In this document: piece by piece, positions 3,468 to 64,000 of the stretch | How positions within the stretch are numbered: position 1 is the stretch's first letter | Layout of the letters: every line of letters starts with the position of its first letter | Assembly (NCBI GenBank): GCA_903824295.1 | Contig: CAIJWE010000103.1 | Span: 1-64,000 of the forward strand | Source of the DNA: an uncultured Chlorobiaceae bacterium | GTDB taxonomy: Bacteria; Bacteroidota; Chlorobiia; Chlorobiales; Chlorobiaceae | Length of the DNA stretch: 64,000 nt | Direction of reading: 5' to 3' | Position numbers and translations under genes: made by a program | The notes under the pieces: model-generated | What the model saw: the letters and a program-made list of their open reading frames with translations, nothing else | Told to the model about the DNA's origin: nothing | The model's database searches: none

Positions 3468-4769
3468 TCAGACTTCGAGACTTGCAAGCAGTTCAAAAAA
3501 GTTCGGGAACGAGACACCGACAACATCAACGTCAGAAATATCAATAGGGCACCCTGTAGCCTTGCTGGCAACGGCAAAGCTCATGGCAATTCGGTGATCA
3601 TCAAAACTCTCGATCACCACCGTTCCTGAAGGGGTTATTTTGCGACTTTTGACAATAAAACCGTCCGGGTACTGCTCGCAATCAAAACCGAGCCGCTGCA
3701 GATTGACCACCAGGGCGTCAATCCGGTCGCTCTCTTTGGTTCTCAGCTCGGCCGCGTTGTGCAGCTCAAACTTGCCGGATGCAAAGGCAGAAAGCACAGC
3801 AAGCATCGGTATCTCATCAATGATAAAGGAGACAAGCTGCGGATCCTCAATGACAAGGGGCTCAAGCCCTGCGTGGTTCTCCACAACGATATCGCCGATG
3901 GTTTCACCACCGATCACCCGCTGGTTTTCAATAGTCAAACCGGCTCCGGCTTCCGACAAAAGAGCGAGAAATGCGGCCCGTGTCGGATTGAGGCAGACAT
4001 CCCTGATGATAATTTCTGAGCCACGGGCAAGCAGACCAAGCGCAACAATAAAGCAGGCGGCTGAAGGGTCAGCAGGAATAAAAAAGGGCTTTGCGGCAAG
4101 AGCCTTTCTGCCAGGAACAATGATGACCCGCTCACCGTTGGATTCAATGCTCTGTAGACCAAGCATCACTTCAGTATGGTCACGCGAGCGCACCGGTTCA
4201 ATAATTCTCGATTCGCCATCGGCATGGAGGGCGGCAAAGGCCACCAGTGACTTCACCTGCGCTGAAGGAACCGGCAGGCGGTAGTTGATCGCCATCAGCT
4301 CTTTGGTTCCCTTGATGCGCATCGGCGCGGTACCTGACGGCGAAAGCTGAACATCAACTCCCATTATGCGCAATGGATCGGCAACCCTCTTCATCGGTCG
4401 CTTCATCAGCGAAGTGTCGCCAATCAACTCACTGGCAAAAGGCTGGGCAGCCAAAATACCGGCAAACATGCGCATGGTGCTTCCCGAATTATTGCACATC
4501 AAAGGCTCTGAGGGAGGCTGAAAACTCCAAAGGCCCTTTGACTCGATAACCACTCGCCGGATGCGGCGACCGTAGACTCCATCCACCTCTTCCTGCCGAA
4601 GGGTGATTCCGGCACTTTTCAGGACGCCGAGGGTTGACTGATTATCAAATCCGGCGGAAAAGTTGGTGATCTCTGTTGTCCCTTCCGACAATGCGCCGAT
4701 AAGTGCCGCACGGTGGGAGATCGATTTGTCGGGCGGTAACGCGGTAACTTCACCTTTGAACACTCTCAT
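3468..4769 (-). CDS. aroA: 3-phosphoshikimate 1-carboxyvinyltransferase (EPSP synthase)
   Basis: A 433-residue protein of normal length for AroA, which joins shikimate 3-phosphate and PEP in aromatic amino acid synthesis. The N-terminal [17 protein letters not shown] carries the substrate-binding Lys/Ser. NNSGSTMRM, a PSSAQVKS-like segment (VPSAQVKS), the DPSAACF motif, the late RTKESDRI and the C-terminal [14 protein letters not shown] are all present. No truncation is seen. It begins ATG AGA GTG and runs convergently against the alpha/beta hydrolase. Confidence 0.95.
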
Positions 4770-5075: not shown

Positions 5076-5720
5076 TCAACGTCTAAGTTTCAGTTTAATA
5101 AGATCAGTAACACTTTCTGAATTTTTTCCATTCGCAGGGCTCATCTGCACATTTTCGAGAAGCTGTTTTCGGCCACTTTTGCAAAATTCAACAATAATGA
5201 CAAAGGCACCGCTTCCTGTCGCCTGTTTTTCCCTGACAACGCCAACCTCACCAAGCGCCTGGTGATAGAGCGCATCACCTTTTGCATAGATACCATGCGG
5301 AGAGTAGACCTGGCACTCTTCGGCTTTCAGCTCATCAGGACTGACCTCACGGTCAATCTGTATCTGCCACTCCTTGAGCAGATAGACCTGATTGCACTCG
5401 GAACAGCGAACCCAGTACTGGTTTTCGGCTGGAGGCTGCAATTCAGCAGCCCCGTTTTTACTGCCTTTGGGCTTTTTAGGCGCAACGGCCGTTAAATAAT
5501 CATCCTCCCTGGGCTTGTCGCTCGGCATCCATTCACCGACAAAGAGCTTCTCTGTTATCTGACCGCACCCTTCACAGAAGCAAGCCTTGATCTTACCCTC
5601 CAAAATGAACTGTCTTTTTCTGGACTCTACCTTCATATCATATTGCTGGTTGTTAACCCGGCCCAAAGCCGTATGGATTTCAGACTCTCTCTTGCTCCAA
5701 TCTCTTTTTGCGGGCTTCAT
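5076..5720 (-). CDS. Zinc-ribbon protein with C-terminal Tudor/KOW-like segment, unknown function
   Basis: A 214-residue protein starting MKPAKRDWSKRES; the frame is open further upstream but that part is not protein-like. About residues 45-55 carry CFCEGC and about 110-115 carry CSEC, together a plausible split four-cysteine zinc site. The spacer between them is Lys/Pro-rich and probably flexible. The C-terminal region (roughly 150-200) reads GDALYHQALGEVGVV...IIVEF...GRKQLL, a pattern like the Tudor/KOW-like C-terminal domain of PcrA/UvrD and CarD-type proteins that contact RNA polymerase. I do not recognise the full protein as a named family. It sits between a CBS-domain protein (upstream) and rpsU (downstream), all on the minus strand. 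Confidence 0.7.
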   Translation of the reverse strand: MKPAKRDWSKRESEIHTALGRVNNQQYDMKVESRKRQFILEGKIKACFCEGCGQITEKLFVGEWMPSDKPREDDYLTAVAPKKPKGSKNGAAELQPPAENQYWVRCSECNQVYLLKEWQIQIDREVSPDELKAEECQVYSPHGIYAKGDALYHQALGEVGVVREKQATGSGAFVIIVEFCKSGRKQLLENVQMSPANGKNSESVTDLIKLKLRR

Positions 5721-5821: not shown

Positions 5822-7195
5822 TCACTTATGAGTCAGTGCATCAATAAGATCTGATTTTGTAAGCAATTGAAGGCGTCCATCAGACCGGCTTACGAGCACT
5901 CCTGATGCACTTTGCTGCAATTTATCGGATAATTCGGAAATTGTTGCATCAAGCCGGCAGACCGGAAATGGCTGCTCCATAAAGCCGACAACCTTTGCAT
6001 TCATCGCATCATCATTTTCAATAAGAATAGACAGAATCTTGTCTTCGCTGATACTGCCTATAGGAGCATTGTAGGAAACAATCGGCATCTGGGAGACATC
6101 GTTCTGTTTCATCATCTGAAACACTTCTGCCAGCGTATTTTCCGGGCAGGCAAAAATCAGATCCCGGCGCGCCTTCAACTGAAGGATATCCTCGGCCGTG
6201 ATTTGCTCAAGAGCTGATTTCGCCTTGCGGTAAAAGCCGCGCTTGCGCATCCACTCATCATGGAACATTTTGCTCAAGTAATAACCGCCAAAATCGTTCA
6301 TAACCACCACCACACAATCATCCTCACGGTATGCCGCACCGGCCCGAAGCGCTGCGGCCATAGCCGCGCCTGAAGCCCCTCCGACAAACACCGCTTCCAT
6401 CCGCAAGAGCTCCCTGCCGCAGTTAAAGGCTTCATAATCACTTACCTGTACCACATCATCAAGCAGCGAAGGCTCCCAAAAAGCTGATGGCTGCCTTGAA
6501 CCGATCTCCTCAAGTTCGGAAAAGGCTGGAGCTCCTGGCGTTCCATCCCTGAAAAGCCCCGCATAGATTGAGCCCTGCGACTCAACACCGATAATCTTTA
6601 TGGCGGGGTTCTTTGCTTTCAAAAAAGCGGCTATTCCGAAAACCATACCACCGGAGATCATCGGCACAAAAACGTGCGTAACCCGACCCTCCGTCTGGCG
6701 AAAAATTTCGCTGCCCGTCGATTCGCTGTGAACCTTAAGGCTGAGCGGGTTGGCATACATACCGGTAAAAAAGGCGTTGGGAATACTCCGCACCAGACTT
6801 TCAGCCACATTCATGCAACTGCGCGGCTCTCCAGGCAAGGCATCCGAAGGGGTAATCACCAGTTCCGCGCCGAGAGCACGGAGCATATCCTGCTTTTCCC
6901 GCGATATTTTATCGGGAGCGGCCAGCAGCAGCTTGTAGCCACGGCTTACACCGGCCATGGCCAATGCAATCCCGCTATTACCAAAAGTCCAATCAACAAG
7001 AGTCATTCCCGGATGGATCAGCTTGCGCTCTTCAGCATCTCTGACAATGGCAGAGGCCACCCGGTAGTAGTGCGACCATGCCGGATTCATGTACTCAAGC
7101 TTGGCCATGACCTTCGGCCTGATCTGGCGGGCCATCTGTTGTACAGGAACCATAGGCGTTTCTGTGGCAAGCCCGAATATATCGTGGTTCAACAT
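5822..7195 (-). CDS. Cysteine-synthase-fold protein with CBS-domain pair, PLP lysine missing
   Basis: A 457-residue protein with the architecture of cystathionine beta-synthase: a fold-type-II PLP domain (about 10-330) and two CBS modules (about 335-457). Overall collinearity with cysteine synthase is clear: AKLEYMNPAWSHYYR matches the usual KxExxNPxxSVKDR block, TFGNSGIALA matches the TSGNTG loop, and an ISGGMVFG segment matches the GTGGT phosphate loop. The Lys that forms the Schiff base with PLP is Tyr43, the next residue is also Tyr, and the phosphate loop has lost its Thr residues. This predicts no ordinary PLP catalysis. The CBS pair may still bind adenosyl ligands, so a regulatory role is possible. 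ATG at 7195 was chosen because the upstream in-frame extension is not family-like. Confidence 0.8.
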   Translation of the reverse strand: MLNHDIFGLATETPMVPVQQMARQIRPKVMAKLEYMNPAWSHYYRVASAIVRDAEERKLIHPGMTLVDWTFGNSGIALAMAGVSRGYKLLLAAPDKISREKQDMLRALGAELVITPSDALPGEPRSCMNVAESLVRSIPNAFFTGMYANPLSLKVHSESTGSEIFRQTEGRVTHVFVPMISGGMVFGIAAFLKAKNPAIKIIGVESQGSIYAGLFRDGTPGAPAFSELEEIGSRQPSAFWEPSLLDDVVQVSDYEAFNCGRELLRMEAVFVGGASGAAMAAALRAGAAYREDDCVVVVMNDFGGYYLSKMFHDEWMRKRGFYRKAKSALEQITAEDILQLKARRDLIFACPENTLAEVFQMMKQNDVSQMPIVSYNAPIGSISEDKILSILIENDDAMNAKVVGFMEQPFPVCRLDATISELSDKLQQSASGVLVSRSDGRLQLLTKSDLIDALTHK

Positions 7196-7403: not shown

Positions 7404-8555
7404 ATGGATAAAAAAAATAGCGAGTTTGCAGCAGGAGAGATTTTACCTGAAAACATGACAGAGGCGCTTGTCTCGCTCGAAAACCTTGCCTGGAATGCAC
7501 GCATGATCCGCCAGAGAGTTGGTGAAGAGCGGCGAATCATGGGTATCGTCAAAGCCAATGCTTACGGCCATAACGTGCACAGGGTTGCTGAAACGCTTGA
7601 AAAATCGGGAATCAAGGATTTCGGCGTGGCCAACATCCATGAAGCCATTGAACTGAAAAGAGGTGGTGCGCTGAAAAAGCGAGCCACCATTCTCGCTTTC
7701 TCTTCGCCACTCCCCTCCCATATTCCGTTTTTTTTGCACCACGGCATTGAAATGACCCTCTGCGACAGCACGACCCTTCATGCGGCAGAGGAAATTGCCG
7801 CCACAGCGGACAAAACGCTTGCCATACAGGTAAAGGTCGATACTGGCATGGGGCGTCTCGGTGTTTCACCGTCAGTTGCCATGGAGCTCCTCCGGCAAAT
7901 TGACCGCTCTCCACACCTTGAACTGAAAGGAATCTACACCCACTTTGCCGACAGCGCAACTGCAGAAGGTTTCACCCGGCAACAGCTCACCTCCTTTACA
8001 GCGCTCACCCGAGAATATGAACATGCTTCATCAAGAACCGTGTGCAAACACGCAGCCAACAGCGGCGCAATCCTCTCATCACCCCAATCCTGGCTCGATA
8101 TGGTGCGCCCCGGCATCCTGCTCTACGGGTACCATCCAGTAAAACAGAGCGCTTGCCGCCTCGACGTCAAACCGGTCATGCAATTTGAGGCAAAAGTAAT
8201 TTTTGTCAAAACCGTCCCTGCCGGAACCACCATCAGCTATAACCGGAGCTGGACGGCTCAGGAAACGTGCTCCATAGCTACCATAGCCGCAGGCTACGCC
8301 GATGGTTATGCAAGAGTGCTCTCAAGCCGTGCCACCGTCATCATCAACGGCACCGCTTACCCGCAGGTAGGCACCGTCACGATGGATCAGATCATGGTTA
8401 ACCTTGGCACCTGCCACAATGTCAAAACAGGCGACAAAGCGATTCTTTTTGGCTGGGAAGGCGACGGGGCGGAGAGCATGGCCGATTTGGCTGGCACCAT
8501 CAGTTATGAAACGCTCTGTTCGATCTCTTCAAGGGTAAAACGGATCTTTGTATGA
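7404..8555 (+). CDS. alr: Alanine racemase
   Basis: A 383-residue protein of normal length. It interconverts L- and D-alanine for peptidoglycan. The PLP lysine lies in MGIVKANAYGHN near the N-terminus. The second catalytic region is ISYNRSW, with the active-site Tyr in the ATIAAGYADGYAR region, followed by the conserved TVTMDQIMV block. No motif is missing. It is divergent from the PLP-fold/CBS gene across about 200 bp. The next gene overlaps its stop codon (ATGA), which points to one transcript and translational coupling. Confidence 0.95.
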   Translation: MDKKNSEFAAGEILPENMTEALVSLENLAWNARMIRQRVGEERRIMGIVKANAYGHNVHRVAETLEKSGIKDFGVANIHEAIELKRGGALKKRATILAFSSPLPSHIPFFLHHGIEMTLCDSTTLHAAEEIAATADKTLAIQVKVDTGMGRLGVSPSVAMELLRQIDRSPHLELKGIYTHFADSATAEGFTRQQLTSFTALTREYEHASSRTVCKHAANSGAILSSPQSWLDMVRPGILLYGYHPVKQSACRLDVKPVMQFEAKVIFVKTVPAGTTISYNRSWTAQETCSIATIAAGYADGYARVLSSRATVIINGTAYPQVGTVTMDQIMVNLGTCHNVKTGDKAILFGWEGDGAESMADLAGTISYETLCSISSRVKRIFV

Positions 8556-9067
8556 ACCCCCTCGACAAACTGGCGCTGAAGCTCAGCCTCACCAAAGCTG
8601 AAATTACCCTGGTCTCAGCTCTTCTGGCCTTTCTGCTGCTTGGCGGTATCCTTGTGAATATCCGTTCATCTGAAAAGGTCGATCTCCTTGTCAAAAAAGC
8701 GGAAAGTGCCCGATACCGTGAAGCGGAGGTAGACAGCCTCATCGCTCTTGCCACCGTGCAGCAGGAAAGCGTCAAGGAGGATGTGCTGCAGGATGCTGAA
8801 ACCGAAGCCGATGACGTTGCGACTGAAAAAAGGGCTGAACACCGCTCATCAGGAAAAAAAGTCTTTACCGGCACGCTCTCTTTCAACAAGGCGAGCAGCC
8901 AGCAGTTACAGAAAATTCCGGGAATCGGACCGGTCATGGCCGAACGACTGGTTACTTTCAGAAAATCAAAAGGGGGAAAAGTGCTCCAATTCCAGGATTT
9001 TCTTGACGTCAAAGGTATCGGCAAAAAAAAGCTTGAATCCCTCAAAAAATATTTCATACTCGAATAA
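8552..9067 (+). CDS. Membrane-anchored helix-hairpin-helix protein (ComEA-like)
   Basis: A 171-residue protein. Residues about 18-35 form one hydrophobic anchor (LVSALLAFLLLGGILVNI). A charged linker follows. The last 65 residues are a tandem helix-hairpin-helix module: FNKASSQQLQKIPGIGPVMAERLV, then FLDVKGIGKKKLESL. This is the ComEA arrangement, an N-terminal anchor with a periplasmic non-specific DNA-binding module, as used in DNA uptake. The start overlaps the alr stop by ATGA and its stop overlaps the next start by 1 bp. No other competence gene is in view, so a transformation role is an inference from domain type. Confidence 0.8.
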   Translation: MNPLDKLALKLSLTKAEITLVSALLAFLLLGGILVNIRSSEKVDLLVKKAESARYREAEVDSLIALATVQQESVKEDVLQDAETEADDVATEKRAEHRSSGKKVFTGTLSFNKASSQQLQKIPGIGPVMAERLVTFRKSKGGKVLQFQDFLDVKGIGKKKLESLKKYFILE

Positions 9068-9948
9068 TGAGCCTAAGCCTGATCGCCTGCGCCATCGACC
9101 AGAGAGAGTGCGCTGTCGTTTGCATGAAAAAATCCGGCGGCAGCCATTACAGCCTTGACGGGTGCAATACGTTGCCATTCGGCCTTGACGACCTTGCTTC
9201 AGCCAAAGGAAATCGACTGCTGAAAAAGCTTGACAGCCATCTCAACCTCTGGCCGGATGAAGAGTTGGCGCTCTGCCTCGGGCCAAAAAACTACCTTCCC
9301 CTTCCCGTCTCTTTTCCTGCAAATACAAGCGTGGAGAGGTGCCGGGAGTACTCACGGATTGAAGCGCAATACTTTTTAAGCCAACCCGAAAAGTACGATT
9401 GCGACTGTGTCGGTTATGGCAGTAACCAGAAGGGATTGCATGAAAAAAAGATGCTGCTCTTCTATCCCGCCACAGCCAGCAGAAGAGTTTCAGAACACCT
9501 TGCAGCCTCTCGCCGAATCATCTTCAGCGGCACCCCGCAGTCTCCTCTTCTTTACCTCTCCAACTTTACGACAGAGAGGCTGGTCATCCTTGAGATTGAA
9601 AGCAACTATCTCCTTCTGACTGCATCAAAAGAGGGCCGGTTAGAACAATTTTCATGTCGGGAGACAAAAAACCGGAAAGAGAGCGAATACTTCACCATCA
9701 AGGAGCTTGTCGAAAACCCGCTCTTCCGCGAAACGGAGGTACAACTGACCGGCACACTGGCCGACAAGGCGATGACAAGACTCATCAAAAAAGAGACCTC
9801 GATGACGCTCAAACCACTCAGTATCACTCCCTCACTCTCCATCAGTAACCCTTCAAAATTTTCCATCTCCTCTGCGGTTGCAGTCAAAGCCATCAGCCTG
9901 GCACTAATGGCTTTGGACAGGCAAAAGAGGTTTTCGTTCAAGCACTAA
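9067..9948 (+). CDS. Unknown protein in alr operon
   Basis: A 293-residue protein beginning MSLSLIACAIDQRECAVVC. I recognise no family. The first 200 residues have alternating strands and helices that could fit an actin-like (PilM-type) fold: a short beta strand start, a LALCLGPKNYLPLP segment and a LVILEIESNYLLLTA segment. This is weak. The C-terminal 80 residues are Ser/Lys-rich and end in a mildly hydrophobic stretch with no clear membrane helix. The start overlaps the stop of the helix-hairpin-helix gene by one base. The last 45 bases overlap the 3' end of the sensor kinase gene on the other strand, which raises the possibility that the C-terminus was remodelled. Confidence 0.6.
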   Translation: MSLSLIACAIDQRECAVVCMKKSGGSHYSLDGCNTLPFGLDDLASAKGNRLLKKLDSHLNLWPDEELALCLGPKNYLPLPVSFPANTSVERCREYSRIEAQYFLSQPEKYDCDCVGYGSNQKGLHEKKMLLFYPATASRRVSEHLAASRRIIFSGTPQSPLLYLSNFTTERLVILEIESNYLLLTASKEGRLEQFSCRETKNRKESEYFTIKELVENPLFRETEVQLTGTLADKAMTRLIKKETSMTLKPLSITPSLSISNPSKFSISSAVAVKAISLALMALDRQKRFSFKH

Positions 9949-12900
9949 TTGTGCTGAAATGACTTCATTGATTTCTCTGGTAAGCTGGGCCATCTTTACC
10001 GGTTTTTTCAGAAGCTTGCTGATACCGTAACGGGCCAGGGACAAATTGTTTTCGATCTCCTTGCCATAGCCGGTCAGAAGGATAACCGGCAGATCCTCCC
10101 GTATTTCATGCAGTGCTGAGATAAGCTCGATTCCGTTCATCTCCGGCATGGTGAGATCGGTTATGAGCAGGTCGAACGCAGCGGGGTCCTGGCGGAAAAC
10201 TTCAAGTGCCCGGCGAGGAGAACTGAAAACCTTTACACTGAAACCGAGTTTCGTGAGCATGGTCGACATCATTTTCAGGGTGCTCTCTTCATCGTCTATG
10301 AAAAGCAGCCGACAGGAGCCCTGAATCGGACGTTCGTCATGCTCAGATTTTTTCTGCTGTTCTTCGATAACCGGCAGAAAAATGCTGAATGAGCTTCCTT
10401 TGCCTTTCCGGCTTTCAACGGTTATTTCTCCTCCAAAACTTTTGATGATACCATGAACCACCGAAAGTCCGAGCCCGGTACCTTTATTGACCGACTTCGT
10501 CGTAAAGAACGGCTCAAAAATACGTTCCATGGTGGCGTCATCCATGCCGCAGCCGGTATCGGAAACAGAAAGGTTCACAAACCGCTCATGCCCGTTTTTT
10601 GCCAGTTCTTTTCCCAATACGCCCTCAGGAATGACCTCCCTGAGCTCGATGCTCAGATCCCCGCCATTTTCCTCCATTGCCTGAAATGCGTTGGTACAGA
10701 GATTGACGATAACCTGATGGATCTTGGACGGATCGGCAAGGATGTTCCTGCACTGCTGAATATTCGCGTTGATGCTGATTGTTGCAGGGATTGACGGGCG
10801 AAGCAGTTTCAGCGCTTCCTGGAGTATTGACTGGACAGAAACAACCGAAGGAGTGCTCTCCTGGGCCTTGCTGAAGGTGAGGATCTGCAAAACAAGATTC
10901 TGAGCGCGGTCCGCCGCCCTGACAATTTCGGAAAAATATTCATAATGCGGATCATCTCCGGAAAGGGTAAGCAATCCCATCTCAGCATAGCCCATGATCG
11001 GGGTGAGAATATTGTTGAAATCGTGCGCGATGCCTCCGGCAAGCGTCCCTATGGTTTCAAGCCGCTGGGTCTTGCGCATGCGCTTTTCAAGTTCATTCTG
11101 ACTGTTCAGAACATTAACCCGCTCGGTAATATCAATAAGAATGCCATCGATACAAGAGAACTGGCCCTCGTCGGAAAAAGTCGATGTTTTCCGGTCTTCG
11201 ATCCACTTGACTGAATTATGTTCATCAATGATCCTGTAAACGATGATCAGGGAATCTTTTTTGCTCATGAGCTCCCGGTTGGACTGCTTAACTGTTTCGC
11301 GGTCTTCCGGATGGATGGAGTTCATTGCGTCATCCAGCGTTCCGGTCATGCCGGGGAACAGGATGTTTGAAGCCGAAAAGATCGAATTGCTGAAAAACTT
11401 GATGGCACCGTCACCGTACATCCTGTAAACGGCACCGGGAATATTGTCGATAATGGAGCGCAGCTCTTCGCGCAACCTCGACTGCAGGGTATATGCTGCC
11501 AGCACGGCCTCATTTTTTTTCATTTCCGTGAGGTCTACAACAACCTCACGACCCCCTGTGATCACACCTCCTGTGAACACCGGTGCGGCGTAGAGCAGTG
11601 CTTGAAATTCAGTTCCGTCCTTCCTGAGCCCCATCACCTCAATATTTTCCATTTTGCCGTCAAGGATGGATTGCAGTATGCCATCCAAACGGGAGATATC
11701 CGAGGTGTTAACCAGACTGTATAAAGAAAGGCTCTGCATCTCCAAGGCATCATATCCGAAAAACACCAGACTTTGCCTGTTGCAGTAAGTAATCACTCCA
11801 TGTTTGTCAGTCTCTATAACCGGAAGAGGAAGGAATGCCGTCAGTTCCCTGAACCTTCTTTCACTCTCCTTGATGGCCGACTCGTGCTTTATCCGCTCGG
11901 TGATGTCCCGCGAAATACCGAAAATCACGGGGCACCCATCCCAGGTTCCATGGGTAACGATCGTTTCCACAGGAATCAGGGAACCTGTTTTCGTCATCAG
12001 GGGGACGAGACAGACGCTTTCTGTGCCACAAAGCATCCCTTCAATATTGCGCCTGGCTTCAGCCTGCTGAGAAGGAGGATGGAAGTCAAGCACATGCATC
12101 CGATATGCCTCTTCCGATGTATACCCGAGACGGGAGAGCACGGCAGAGTTTGTGTGCTTGACCATCTCGTCAGTACCGACAATGAAGAGCAAGTCGTCAA
12201 TGGTATTGAACAGTGCCTCCAGATTTCTGTTCGTCGTGTTTATCTTTTCCTCGTGTTTTGCCTGAACAATGGCGGTACCAATCTGGGATGCCACGGCCTC
12301 AAGGGCCTTGCGTGCAAATTCCGGAACATGGCCAATCTTGTGGGAAGAGATATTCAGACATGCCACAGCGATATTCTTGCTCAGGACAGGAACGATCGCA
12401 ATTGCCTTTAGTCCCTCTTCCATACCCGCTTCTCTGGTAGTGAGATCAATCTCCTCATAACGGCTGTAGATTGGTGTACCTTGAGAAACGATACGCATCT
12501 GGTTGCAATTGCTCTCGTAATGACTTGTTTTACCGACAAATGATTCCGTAAGCCCTTCAGAGAAGGTAAGCCTCAGGCTGTTGTCGGCTTCGTTCACGAG
12601 GTAGATTCCGCCACAATCCATGCCTGAAATTTCAAGCGCGCTCTGCAGACAGATTTTCAGCGTCTCCTCGAAGGATAAGGAGGCACTGAGCTTCAGTGCA
12701 AGATCGAGTTCGCACTGGATCATTCGTTCGACATGCGTCCTCTGAAGGGCGTTGGCAATGATTCCTCCAGCAAGCTTGAGTACCGAAACAGTCTCCTGTG
12801 GCCAATGGCGCTCTTTTGTAACCGCGTCGAAGCCGATGTATCCGAACGGGAGATTACCTGAGGAGAGGGGAATGATGATGAGCGATCGGATATCCTGCTG

Positions 12901-14163
12901 TTCGAGGATCTCTTTCTCAGCGGCAGCTTCCTCCGGCAACTCCGATACTTTCGGTATGAGGATCGTTTCATTCTTGTTGATCTGTTCCATCAGCCATACA
13001 AACTGATCAGTCGGAAGGTGCTGCAGGATCTCAATCTGCGACTCAATACCCTCGGCACACCACTCGTGGGTATTGTCCATCAGCCGCTGGTTGTCGTAAC
13101 ACTGGAAGATATAACTCCGGTCTGCCTGTACGAACTTTCCGATGGTTTCGAGGGCAACATTGACCATCTTGTCGATTTTTCCGACAGGCACGTTGATGAA
13201 CTGGTTGGCCAACGTGGTGACAAGACGCTCGAACCTTCGGTTGTATGAGAGAGAGGGCTCGTAGCCGCCATGAGAAGCCGCGTCGAGGATAAAGGAGTCG
13301 TAGTGTGAGACCGTGCCGTTTTCATCGCGATGGATGAACCTGAAATCATAGACCTGGATTTCGGAATCCTCTTGTCCCAGCATCCGGTACTCCAGCTCGA
13401 ACGATTCTCGACACCTCTCTGCGGTGAACGATTCAGCTTCCGCCAAAACCCGAGCCCTGTCGTCTGGATGAATGAGGCTGGTATAACTGACCGCATTTCC
13501 AGTCAGCTCGGCCGGCAGGCAGCCAGGCAGTGTTCCGAAATTCTTCGTGACTTCGAGTACTGGCCAGCCGGGACTGTTTTTCAGGCGGAATACCGAGACC
13601 GGCCCACCCATAAACATGTTTCTTTCCTTGCGAAGCCTTTCCTCGGTAAGCTTCCTCTTGGTTATATCATGCTGGGTGCCTACCATGCGAACCGGCTTTC
13701 CCTCCCGGTCACGCTCAAAAACCATACCCCGGTCGAGCACCCATACCCAATCGCCGTTTTTGTGCCGCATCCTGAGCTCGATTTCATCGAAATCGGACTC
13801 CCCGCTGAAATGCCTTTCAAGCAGGTCGGTTGGGCACTTCAGATCGTCAGGGTCGCACAGCCTCTTCCAGGTTTCGATTGTGACCGGTTCGAGTTCCTCT
13901 TTTGTATAACCTGCGATTTCAGCCCAGCGGTTGTTTACGGCAACTGTTCCCGAACCGATATCCCAGTCCCAGGAACCAGCCTCGGTGCCGGCAATGAACA
14001 ACCCCAGGGTTTCAACCTGTTTTTCATAATCAGCCAGCTTCGCATCTTTTTCCTTGAGCGAAGCCTTCAGTTGCTGATTTTCCTCTTCGAGGCGTCGAAA
14101 ATGTTCCGTCATCATATCAACAAATCGGTTATCGATATTCGTCTCTCTTTGATACGCTTGCAT
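9904..14163 (-). CDS. Multi-PAS/GAF hybrid sensor histidine kinase with receiver domain
   Basis: A 1419-residue protein without evident membrane segments. In order: a coiled coil (about 15-50); PAS/PAC domains (about 50-170 and 180-300); two GAF domains (about 315-470 and 480-640); three further PAS domains (about 655-1030); a HisKA dimerisation helix with the phosphoacceptor His1047 in GGIAHDFNNIL; an ATPase domain with N-box NLCTNAFQAMEE, G1 DTGCGM, FEPFFTTK and GTGLGLSVVHG; and a C-terminal receiver with phosphoacceptor Asp1336 in LLITDLTMPEMNG and a conserved Lys in LLKKP. All kinase boxes are intact. The ligand of the GAF/PAS sensors cannot be read; some could bind tetrapyrroles, flavin or heme. 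No dedicated response regulator or output gene is adjacent. Confidence 0.93.
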   Translation of the reverse strand: MQAYQRETNIDNRFVDMMTEHFRRLEEENQQLKASLKEKDAKLADYEKQVETLGLFIAGTEAGSWDWDIGSGTVAVNNRWAEIAGYTKEELEPVTIETWKRLCDPDDLKCPTDLLERHFSGESDFDEIELRMRHKNGDWVWVLDRGMVFERDREGKPVRMVGTQHDITKRKLTEERLRKERNMFMGGPVSVFRLKNSPGWPVLEVTKNFGTLPGCLPAELTGNAVSYTSLIHPDDRARVLAEAESFTAERCRESFELEYRMLGQEDSEIQVYDFRFIHRDENGTVSHYDSFILDAASHGGYEPSLSYNRRFERLVTTLANQFINVPVGKIDKMVNVALETIGKFVQADRSYIFQCYDNQRLMDNTHEWCAEGIESQIEILQHLPTDQFVWLMEQINKNETILIPKVSELPEEAAAEKEILEQQDIRSLIIIPLSSGNLPFGYIGFDAVTKERHWPQETVSVLKLAGGIIANALQRTHVERMIQCELDLALKLSASLSFEETLKICLQSALEISGMDCGGIYLVNEADNSLRLTFSEGLTESFVGKTSHYESNCNQMRIVSQGTPIYSRYEEIDLTTREAGMEEGLKAIAIVPVLSKNIAVACLNISSHKIGHVPEFARKALEAVASQIGTAIVQAKHEEKINTTNRNLEALFNTIDDLLFIVGTDEMVKHTNSAVLSRLGYTSEEAYRMHVLDFHPPSQQAEARRNIEGMLCGTESVCLVPLMTKTGSLIPVETIVTHGTWDGCPVIFGISRDITERIKHESAIKESERRFRELTAFLPLPVIETDKHGVITYCNRQSLVFFGYDALEMQSLSLYSLVNTSDISRLDGILQSILDGKMENIEVMGLRKDGTEFQALLYAAPVFTGGVITGGREVVVDLTEMKKNEAVLAAYTLQSRLREELRSIIDNIPGAVYRMYGDGAIKFFSNSIFSASNILFPGMTGTLDDAMNSIHPEDRETVKQSNRELMSKKDSLIIVYRIIDEHNSVKWIEDRKTSTFSDEGQFSCIDGILIDITERVNVLNSQNELEKRMRKTQRLETIGTLAGGIAHDFNNILTPIMGYAEMGLLTLSGDDPHYEYFSEIVRAADRAQNLVLQILTFSKAQESTPSVVSVQSILQEALKLLRPSIPATISINANIQQCRNILADPSKIHQVIVNLCTNAFQAMEENGGDLSIELREVIPEGVLGKELAKNGHERFVNLSVSDTGCGMDDATMERIFEPFFTTKSVNKGTGLGLSVVHGIIKSFGGEITVESRKGKGSSFSIFLPVIEEQQKKSEHDERPIQGSCRLLFIDDEESTLKMMSTMLTKLGFSVKVFSSPRRALEVFRQDPAAFDLLITDLTMPEMNGIELISALHEIREDLPVILLTGYGKEIENNLSLARYGISKLLKKPVKMAQLTREINEVISAQLVLERKPLLPVQSH

Positions 14164-56377: not shown

Positions 56378-58162
56378 ATGCCAGAAAAAACAGAGTTACT
56401 GAACACTACAAGCAAAACAACAAAAAAGGAGCCCTCCGTCAAGGATCATGAGGCCATCTATGCAGGAATCGGCGCATCAAGGGGCATTACCATCGGAGAG
56501 TGCTACGCTTTTGTCAAGGAGATGTGTCATCATGAAAACAGGGAGCTGAACGACAACAATATCAGCGAAGAGATTGAACGCTTTCTTTCCGCCTTGCAGC
56601 GATCGGAAAATGAGCTGAAGAAAATTGAACAGGTCACCATAAGAAAACTTGGAAAGGGGTACTCCAATCTCTTTGAGGCGCAGATCATGATGCTGCATGA
56701 CCCCGTGCTGATTGAAGCCATTGCCGGACGGATACAATCGGAACGCAAACCAGCGCATCTTGTCATTGAGGAGGTGTTCGAACACTATCTTGAAAAGTTC
56801 ACTAATTCTGATAACCAGATGTTCCAGGATCGTGCTGATGATCTGCACGATATCAAGAACCGTATTATCAGAAACCTTCATATCCGAAAACTGCACTCAT
56901 GGATTCCAGAAGGCGTGATTGTTGCCTCCGACAACCTCTCTTCAGCCGATATCATTCTTTTAAGCCGCAGCAATGTCAAGGGATTTGTCACTGATTCGGG
57001 GGGAAAGACCTCGCATATTGCCCTGATATGCCGCTCACTCAACATTCCAATCGTTGTCGGGCTTGGCAATATTTCCCAAAAGGTATCGACGGGAATGCAG
57101 ATGATTATTGACGGCACTACAGGAACCGTTATTACAAACCCTGAAGAGAAAACTCTTGCGAGCTATCTGAGAAAAAAAGAGGAGGCTATAAAAAATGAGG
57201 CCGACAGCTCCCTCACGGCTGCACTTCCTGCAACGACAAAATGCGGCATCAGGATCACCTTTTATGCCAATATTGACTTCAAAGAAGAGCTGCACACTCT
57301 GGTCACTACCGGTGCAGAAGGAGTAGGACTCTTCCGAAGCGAAAACCTCTTCACCGAAGGGACAAAGGTGCCCAGGGAGTCAGAGCAATATACCTATTAC
57401 CTGGAGATGGCTGAAGCGATTACCCCGATGCCTCTCGACATACGCCTTTTTGATCTCGGAGGCGACAAGCTGATCTACTCTCCAGTCAAGGAACCAAATC
57501 CAAACCTTGGATGGAGAGGCATAAGGATTCTGATTGATCTGCCGGAAATTCTTGACGCCCAGCTTCGAGCTGCCATCAGGGCAAATATCCATGGCAATAT
57601 CGACATCCTTATTCCCATGATCACTTCAGTCGATGAGATTCGCCTGGTCAGGGCAATAATCGATAAACACTATGAGGAGCTGACTGCTGAGACCGATTCG
57701 CAACTTGAAAAACCGGGAGTCGGTGCAATGATCGAGGTTCCGGCAGCGGTAGAACTCATTGATGAGATCACCAAGTGTGTCGATTTCATCAGCATCGGCA
57801 CCAATGATCTCACACAGTATACACTTGCCGTAGACCGAAACAATGTGATTGTACAGGATCTTTTTGAAAAATTCCATCCGGCAATAATCCGCCAACTGTA
57901 CCGGGTTATCACATCTGCCAATAAAAACCGGTGCAAGGCGATGATCTGCGGCGATATGGGTTCCGACCCTCTCGCACTTCCCTTTCTGCTGGGGTGTGGA
58001 CTGAGAAAATTCAGCGTTGTTGTCTCGGATATCGCGAAACTCAAGTCTCTGGTTTCACGCTACTCGATCGCTGAAACCGAAGCGCTTGCACGGGAGTGCA
58101 TCACGCTTGGTACGTCAACTGAGGTCAAAGCCTGCCTGGAAGCGTTCCAGGCAGCACATTGA
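56378..58162 (+). CDS. ptsI: Phosphoenolpyruvate-protein phosphotransferase (enzyme I)
   Basis: A 594-residue enzyme I of the phosphotransferase system, complete in length. The N-terminal HPr-binding/phosphohistidine domain begins YAGIGASRGITIG; the phosphoacceptor His213 is in GGKTSHIALICRSLNIPIVVG. The C-terminal PEP-binding barrel has EGVGLFRSENLF, IRLFDLGGDK, GWRGIRI, GAMIEVPAAV, DFISIGTNDLTQYTLAVDR and MICGDMGSDPLALPFLLGCG. No HPr, EII or hprK genes are in the window. It is 9 bp downstream of dnaB. A 10-bp inverted repeat (58132-58154) lies inside its last codons. Confidence 0.95.
   Translation: MPEKTELLNTTSKTTKKEPSVKDHEAIYAGIGASRGITIGECYAFVKEMCHHENRELNDNNISEEIERFLSALQRSENELKKIEQVTIRKLGKGYSNLFEAQIMMLHDPVLIEAIAGRIQSERKPAHLVIEEVFEHYLEKFTNSDNQMFQDRADDLHDIKNRIIRNLHIRKLHSWIPEGVIVASDNLSSADIILLSRSNVKGFVTDSGGKTSHIALICRSLNIPIVVGLGNISQKVSTGMQMIIDGTTGTVITNPEEKTLASYLRKKEEAIKNEADSSLTAALPATTKCGIRITFYANIDFKEELHTLVTTGAEGVGLFRSENLFTEGTKVPRESEQYTYYLEMAEAITPMPLDIRLFDLGGDKLIYSPVKEPNPNLGWRGIRILIDLPEILDAQLRAAIRANIHGNIDILIPMITSVDEIRLVRAIIDKHYEELTAETDSQLEKPGVGAMIEVPAAVELIDEITKCVDFISIGTNDLTQYTLAVDRNNVIVQDLFEKFHPAIIRQLYRVITSANKNRCKAMICGDMGSDPLALPFLLGCGLRKFSVVVSDIAKLKSLVSRYSIAETEALARECITLGTSTEVKACLEAFQAAH
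58132..58154. terminator. Hairpin at the end of ptsI
   Basis: A perfect 10-bp stem (58132-58141 with 58145-58154) with a 3-nt loop inside the last ptsI codons. The convergent peptidylprolyl isomerase gene ends 27 bp on. No T-run, so it may only weakly end transcription. Confidence 0.4.
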
Positions 58163-63583: not shown

Positions 63584-64000
63584 ATGAGTTCGGAATTTAC
63601 GAAGATCTTGCTGAATGAAGATGAGATGCCCCGCCAGTGGTACAACATCCAGGCTGACTTGCCTGTGCCGCTGCCACCGCCTTTAGGGCCGGATGGCAAC
63701 CCGATAGGCCCGGACGCCCTTGCAAAGGTTTTTCCTATGAACCTTATTGAGCAGGAGATGAGCACTGAGCGCTGGATCGATATCCCGCAGGGGGTGCAGG
63801 CCATCCTCAAACTCTGGCGTCCCTCTCCACTCTACCGTGCCCACCGACTTGAGGCTGCATTACAGACTCCGGCAAAAATCTTCTACAAAAATGAAGGTGT
63901 TTCGCCAGCGGGAAGTCACAAACCCAATTCAGCCGTACCCCAGGCATGGTACAATAAAGAGTTCGGCATCAAGCATCTCATTACTGAAACCGGCGCTGGC
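63584..64000 (+). CDS. trpB: Tryptophan synthase beta chain-like protein (TrpB2), partial
   Basis: The first 139 residues of a TrpB2-type enzyme; the window ends inside the gene. The opening [20 protein letters not shown] and [14 protein letters not shown] segments are TrpB2 features. The PLP lysine lies in [19 protein letters not shown]. TrpB2 joins indole and serine to tryptophan; many genomes carry it besides or instead of TrpB1. It starts with ATG 63584, about 67 bp after the tRNA gene. The complete reading needs the following sequence. Confidence 0.9.

Follow-up and report, generated by a model that had tools for sequence, protein, structure and literature searches.

The window analysed, 64,000 nucleotides from an uncultured Chlorobiaceae bacterium (GenBank assembly GCA_903824295.1, contig CAIJWE010000103.1, positions 1 to 64,000), carries at 5822..7195 on the minus strand a gene for a cystathionine beta-synthase-like protein without the PLP lysine, which was named CBSL. 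The protein of 457 amino acids starts with MLNHDIFG and reads further on AKLEYMNPAWSHYYRV. Residues 9-299 (6299..7171, minus) form a PALP (fold-type-II) domain (Pfam PF00291, E 8.6e-60, 203 bits). This is followed by a first CBS motif at residues 342-392 (6020..6172, minus; Pfam CBS, 3.7e-12), which contains an invariant Gln369, and by a second at residues ~401-455 (5831..5995, minus), which carries the T-K-S-D ribose-binding signature and is real, although it lies below the Pfam threshold. CBSL thus shows the order of a PALP domain and a CBS pair within about 450 residues. The top NCBIfam model was TIGR01137, cystathionine beta-synthase, for which CBSL scored 332 bits and missed the cut-off of 510. 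The Lys-bearing orthologue L088 with a score of 480 likewise stayed below 510, so that this cut-off alone is not decisive. The best match in the PDB was the cystathionine beta-synthase Rv1077 of M. tuberculosis (E 2e-70), to which CBSL could be aligned over its full length. CBSL is a cystathionine beta-synthase by descent, yet it fails the defining features of the active enzyme that were tested.

The next gene downstream, here called gene X (5076..5636, minus), encodes a zinc-ribbon protein of 186 amino acids and is syntenic in the Chlorobiaceae and in most of the Lys-bearing relatives of the order. Its product has two CxxC pairs and a C-terminal part rich in beta structure; it matched no Pfam family, a PDB fold search was empty at E <= 0.001 and its AlphaFold model was weak (pLDDT 69). 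The mechanical open reading frame, which extends to 5825, begins too early and the true start is likely at MKVESRKRQ. The conserved third gene of the block is aroA (EPSP synthase, 3468..4769, minus), and upstream of CBSL lies, divergently oriented, alr (alanine racemase, 7404..8555, plus). RNA elements were not detected around CBSL at the Rfam gathering thresholds.

Alignment to Rv1077 bore out the substitutions that a sequence-only reading of this DNA had pointed out. NPGGSSKDR of Rv1077 corresponds to NPAWSHYYR in CBSL, where the Schiff-base lysine is replaced by Tyr43 (codon 7067..7069, minus; also in the clade alignment) and the following aspartate by Tyr44, and GTGGT of the PLP-phosphate loop corresponds to ISGGM (residues 180-184, 6644..6658, minus). 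In most Chlorobiaceae relatives this loop reads [A/I/V]SGAM, with Thr184 replaced by Met. The same reading considered the flanking motifs to be otherwise conserved, which understates the loss. The invariant active-site Gln has become Met146 (6758..6760, minus) and the serine contacting the nitrogen of the pyridine ring Ala274 (6374..6376, minus), and the site is further broken by G39A/C, G40W/C/F, D44Y/C, G180A/I/V, G183A and R305Y. In the substrate/O3' loop (residues 70-74, 6974..6988, minus) CBSL has TFGNS, where the Lys-bearing relatives of the order have TAGNT and the remaining outgroups TSGNT, and Asn73 is loosened, being retained in only 67% of the clade sequences. At residues 302-305 (FGGY, 6281..6292, minus) the changes T302F and R305Y are nearly fixed in the clade. 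Among 13 site residues of our own choice that are invariant in the Lys-bearing enzymes, 8 were changed, against 34/111 in the rest of the domain (Fisher p 0.03). Judged from the roles of these residues in OASS and CBS structures, the changes presumably remove the imine, most of the phosphate contacts, the contact to the pyridine nitrogen and one substrate contact.

Several pocket residues have settled in new states (Y43, S74, S181, A274, F302 and Y305); in the Chlorobiaceae clade S74 and S181 are present in 100% and Y43, A274 and Y305 in 97% of the sequences. As a group, the pocket positions of the clade show little more conservation than the surrounding PALP domain (entropy 0.61 versus 0.80), whereas in the Lys-bearing relatives the difference is large (0.13 versus 0.87). 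A substitute lysine in the pocket was sought, and no new conserved lysine was found in the PALP domain of the clade; the conserved lysines 32, 88, 101 and 193 are all ancestral and occur in the Lys-bearing enzymes too. Redox sensing, which had also been suggested for this protein, is without evidence because the pocket cysteines at positions 40 and 44 are not conserved.

The distribution of the change was followed in 80 non-identical Chlorobiaceae sequences from the genera Chlorobium and Chlorobaculum, of which 77 cover residue 43 and 76 are full-length; no genome in the searched sets was recognised as Prosthecochloris. Lys was present at this position in 0/77 sequences; 75 have Tyr, one has Asp and one has Ser. 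All of the 14 full-length orthologues and homologues outside the Chlorobiaceae have Lys, as do 20/20 further homologues of the phylum, all non-Chlorobiales, picked from the top of the match list. Lys-less copies elsewhere in the phylum were thus not seen among these 20 non-Chlorobiales matches. The loss is fixed (0/77 Lys versus 34/34 elsewhere in the phylum) and, judged by a dN/dS of 0.08, the gene that carries it is under strong purifying selection. A sequencing or assembly error as the cause of the loss is ruled out by 77 distinct sequences. CBSL was present in 79/86 Chlorobiaceae genomes. The other seven lack gene X as well as CBSL, so the locus is probably unassembled in these genomes and missing contigs are a more likely cause than a true absence of the gene.

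In a quick phylogenetic tree, which was relied on for the deep split between Lys-less and Lys-bearing sequences only, all Lys-less sequences group together in one clade (SH-aLRT 100, stem of 1.04 substitutions per column) that is sister to the Lys-bearing orthologues of other Chlorobiales. A single clade implies that one change of state accounts for all of them, and the common ancestor of Chlorobium and Chlorobaculum appears to be where PLP chemistry was lost, a single time. Almost all Chlorobiaceae loci carry CBSL, gene X and aroA side by side in the same orientation; several Lys-bearing f2 and f4 genomes share this arrangement, and two more f2 loci have the order CBS-X. This common synteny indicates that CBSL is the orthologue of the normal Lys-bearing enzyme and not a spare paralogue; tree and synteny together establish its common descent with cystathionine beta-synthase. 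The CBS gene is absent from the Chloroherpeton-like f3 genomes. In one of these (G041, contig C49, 2440-6191; L188) it is cleanly gone between gene X and alr: the order of aroA and X and the order downstream of alr are retained, and X lies directly between aroA and alr. Gene X itself is conserved across the Chlorobiales, CBS-less genomes included, and its retention without CBSL in f3 implies that it is at least independent of CBSL. Two Lys-bearing homologues from elsewhere in the phylum, L092 and L164, adjoin a gene of the cystathionine gamma-synthase/lyase type (L164 1228-2397, L092 6043-7233), as is expected of a working transsulfuration enzyme. Such a pairing of the two genes was not seen in the Chlorobiaceae.

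Within the Chlorobiaceae the median dN/dS of CBSL was 0.078, with 0.092 for the PALP domain and 0.043 for the CBS module. Mean identity in the clade was 72% for the PALP domain and 87% for the CBS module, compared with 77 and 65% in the Lys-bearing relatives of the order and 63 and 34% in the other four outgroups. The constraint is thus inverted, and the CBS module rather than the catalytic domain is the most conserved part of the protein in the Chlorobiaceae. Between the two genera identity was 68% for the whole of CBSL, 80% for its CBS module, 71% for aroA, 77% for asd and 58% for alr, which makes the CBS module the most conserved stretch among those compared at the locus. Conservation in the PALP domain extends beyond the old pocket, which, together with the pocket residues now fixed in new states, would be compatible with a new ligand site or activity there. 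The AlphaFold model of CBSL had a mean pLDDT of 88 and a pTM of 0.70, with an uncertain mutual orientation of the PALP and CBS parts. Its PALP part could be superposed on the PLP enzymes CapA1 and Legionella CBS with 1.5-1.8 A over ~315 residues, and the fold is accordingly predicted to be intact.

The second CBS motif contains Asp449 (5849..5851, minus), which by motif corresponds to human CBS Asp538, a contact of the AdoMet ribose. None of the 60 aligned sequences varies at Asp449 or Gln369, and Asp449 is found in 76/76 full-length clade sequences; Thr446 of the T-x-x-D signature occurs in 70/76, with Asn in the other 6. Human CBS requires Asp538 and Gln445 in order to bind AdoMet, and Phe443 and Asp444 likewise (PMC4276868). 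D449 and Q369 of CBSL match human D538 and Q445. However, the human F-D-Q site reads V367-S368-Q369 in CBSL, so that only the Gln is kept and the full site is not present. With Val and Ser in place of Phe443 and Asp444 the ligand of CBSL may not be AdoMet. An adenosyl ligand is likely for the CBS pair, and that it should be AdoMet itself is uncertain. Sensing of such a ligand by the CBS pair, as had been proposed, gains indirect support from the position of the module as the most constrained part of the protein and from the invariant ribose-binding Asp.

Elsewhere in the same genome an active-looking CysK with its lysine (L103) adjoins a serine acetyltransferase of the CysE/EpsC type, and a gene of the gamma-synthase family is present as well, which makes a loss of catalysis in CBSL understandable. 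With CysE and CysK making cysteine from sulfide, the old reaction of CBSL would be dispensable. A short open reading frame on contig C48 of the genome to which the window belongs (G000, ~57245-57499; L003) matches cysteine synthase over no more than its first 80-odd residues and is apparently a truncated copy of cysK.

CBSL has the properties of a pseudoenzyme, since catalytic residues are lost throughout the clade while fold and gene are held by purifying selection. The earlier proposal of a pseudoenzyme is in this respect supported by sequence comparison, in which the whole PLP site proves to be dismantled, with no new conserved lysine in the PALP domain. CBSL has probably turned into a sensor or regulator. 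Our preferred reading, to which we give a probability of about 60%, is that of a pseudoenzyme that acts as a regulatory scaffold, responds to an adenosyl compound or adenine nucleotide and controls a protein partner. At the Asp449 site the CBS pair would bind AdoMet or AMP/ADP/ATP; the dead PALP dimer would then change in conformation or assembly and, as the scaffold, pass the signal on to the partner. Candidate partners are CysK and CysE of cysteine synthesis, or the gene X protein. In a wider and more tentative form it could be said that a single-copy CBS had its old active site rebuilt without PLP, and fixed anew, throughout the family, giving a regulator specific to the Chlorobiaceae that senses adenosyl compounds or energy, or else a PLP-independent enzyme, with the CBS pair as the working part.

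The chief alternative places a new activity, independent of PLP, in the rebuilt pocket: CBSL would remain an enzyme that, having lost the PLP Schiff base, uses another ligand or cofactor for a different reaction and is gated allosterically by the CBS pair. The fixation of several pocket positions in new residues, in place of drift, fits this idea, as do the low dN/dS of the PALP domain (0.09) and its predicted intact fold. However, the pocket stands barely above the PALP background in conservation, position 43 tolerates Asp or Ser, a new conserved triad of catalytic type or metal site is not evident in the PALP domain, and the constraint has shifted to the CBS pair; we consider this activity unlikely. 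Slightly better placed, though still improbable, is a purely structural subunit, which would keep the CBS dimer interface and join the active CysK, or some other PALP enzyme, in a hetero-oligomer so as to stabilize or inhibit it under control of the CBS pair. A real CysK exists in the genome and there are precedents of the same fold (TSB-like, PMC12727527; CYSL-1, PMC5562914). Against it, CBSL does not lie beside cysK and shares only 33-34% identity with CysK. This alternative is a special case of the regulatory scaffold in which the partner is named.

Non-covalent binding of PLP with a weak residual CBS or sulfhydrylase activity is very improbable. Ser181 could hold one phosphate contact, and Gly72, Gly75 and, in 67% of the sequences, Asn73 remain, but Lys, Thr184, Gly180, Gly183, Ser274 and Gln146 were lost together across the clade, and with this joint loss both the imine and the phosphate and pyridine anchors are gone. 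Least probable of all is a degenerating gene on its way to being lost. The lost catalytic site and the Chloroherpeton-like relatives without the gene, one of them with a clean gap between X and alr, are in line with such a decay. It is contradicted already by selection and distribution, as the gene is intact in 76 full-length sequences of two genera, has a dN/dS of 0.08 and is overall conserved to a degree near that of aroA.

Compared with known proteins, CBSL shares the PALP and CBS-pair architecture, the fold and a full-length alignment with cystathionine beta-synthase (TIGR01137; Rv1077 and human CBS), and its synteny with the Lys-bearing orthologues of the Chlorobiales; it differs from cystathionine beta-synthase by the lack of the Schiff-base Lys, the phosphate loop, the pyridine Ser and the active-site Gln. 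CysK/OASS has the same PALP fold but, as in L103, no CBS domains, intact active-site residues and 33% identity to CBSL. Fold-type-II proteins that have turned into regulators are already known. C. elegans CYSL-1 is a CysK homologue that became a regulator and binds EGL-9; like CBSL it is a fold-type-II protein of cysteine metabolism that has lost its reaction, and it acts by protein binding (PMC5562914). Unlike CBSL it is reported to retain a bisulfide-binding site, and its partner, EGL-9, is known. To our knowledge CYSL-1 has no CBS pair. The TSB-like protein of eudicots, a pseudoenzyme of the tryptophan synthase beta subunit, allosterically activates TSA and is, like CBSL, a fold-type-II pseudoenzyme held by selection, but it is a duplicate of an active enzyme and was inactivated at E190 and not at the Lys (PMC12727527). 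CBSL, by contrast, is the sole orthologue and its cofactor site is dismantled. CBSL differs from these known regulators in being a sole orthologue, in the loss of the whole cofactor site and in an attached CBS pair that is now the most constrained part. In the open-access literature no paper on the Chlorobiaceae protein was found.

Many of the pseudoenzymes described are spare duplicates, whereas CBSL is a single-copy orthologue that lost its cofactor site once and was kept family-wide. As the strongest selection moved from the catalytic to the sensor domain, it offers a clean natural experiment in the conversion of a regulated enzyme into a regulator. Judged from its residues CBSL is most likely unable to perform the transsulfuration step, which the automatic label "cystathionine beta-synthase" would add to metabolic models of the Chlorobiaceae.

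Further along the window, a hybrid histidine kinase of 1419 amino acids with PAS and GAF domains (9904-14163, minus) lies between the gene at 9067-9948 and asd. In several close relatives (e.g. L035 and L040) asd almost adjoins the homologue of the 9067-9948 gene, and the kinase seems to be an insertion or deletion between species. At the end of the window another gene of the PALP family, which is not cysK, begins at 63809-64000 and continues beyond it (G000:C103:63809-64810).
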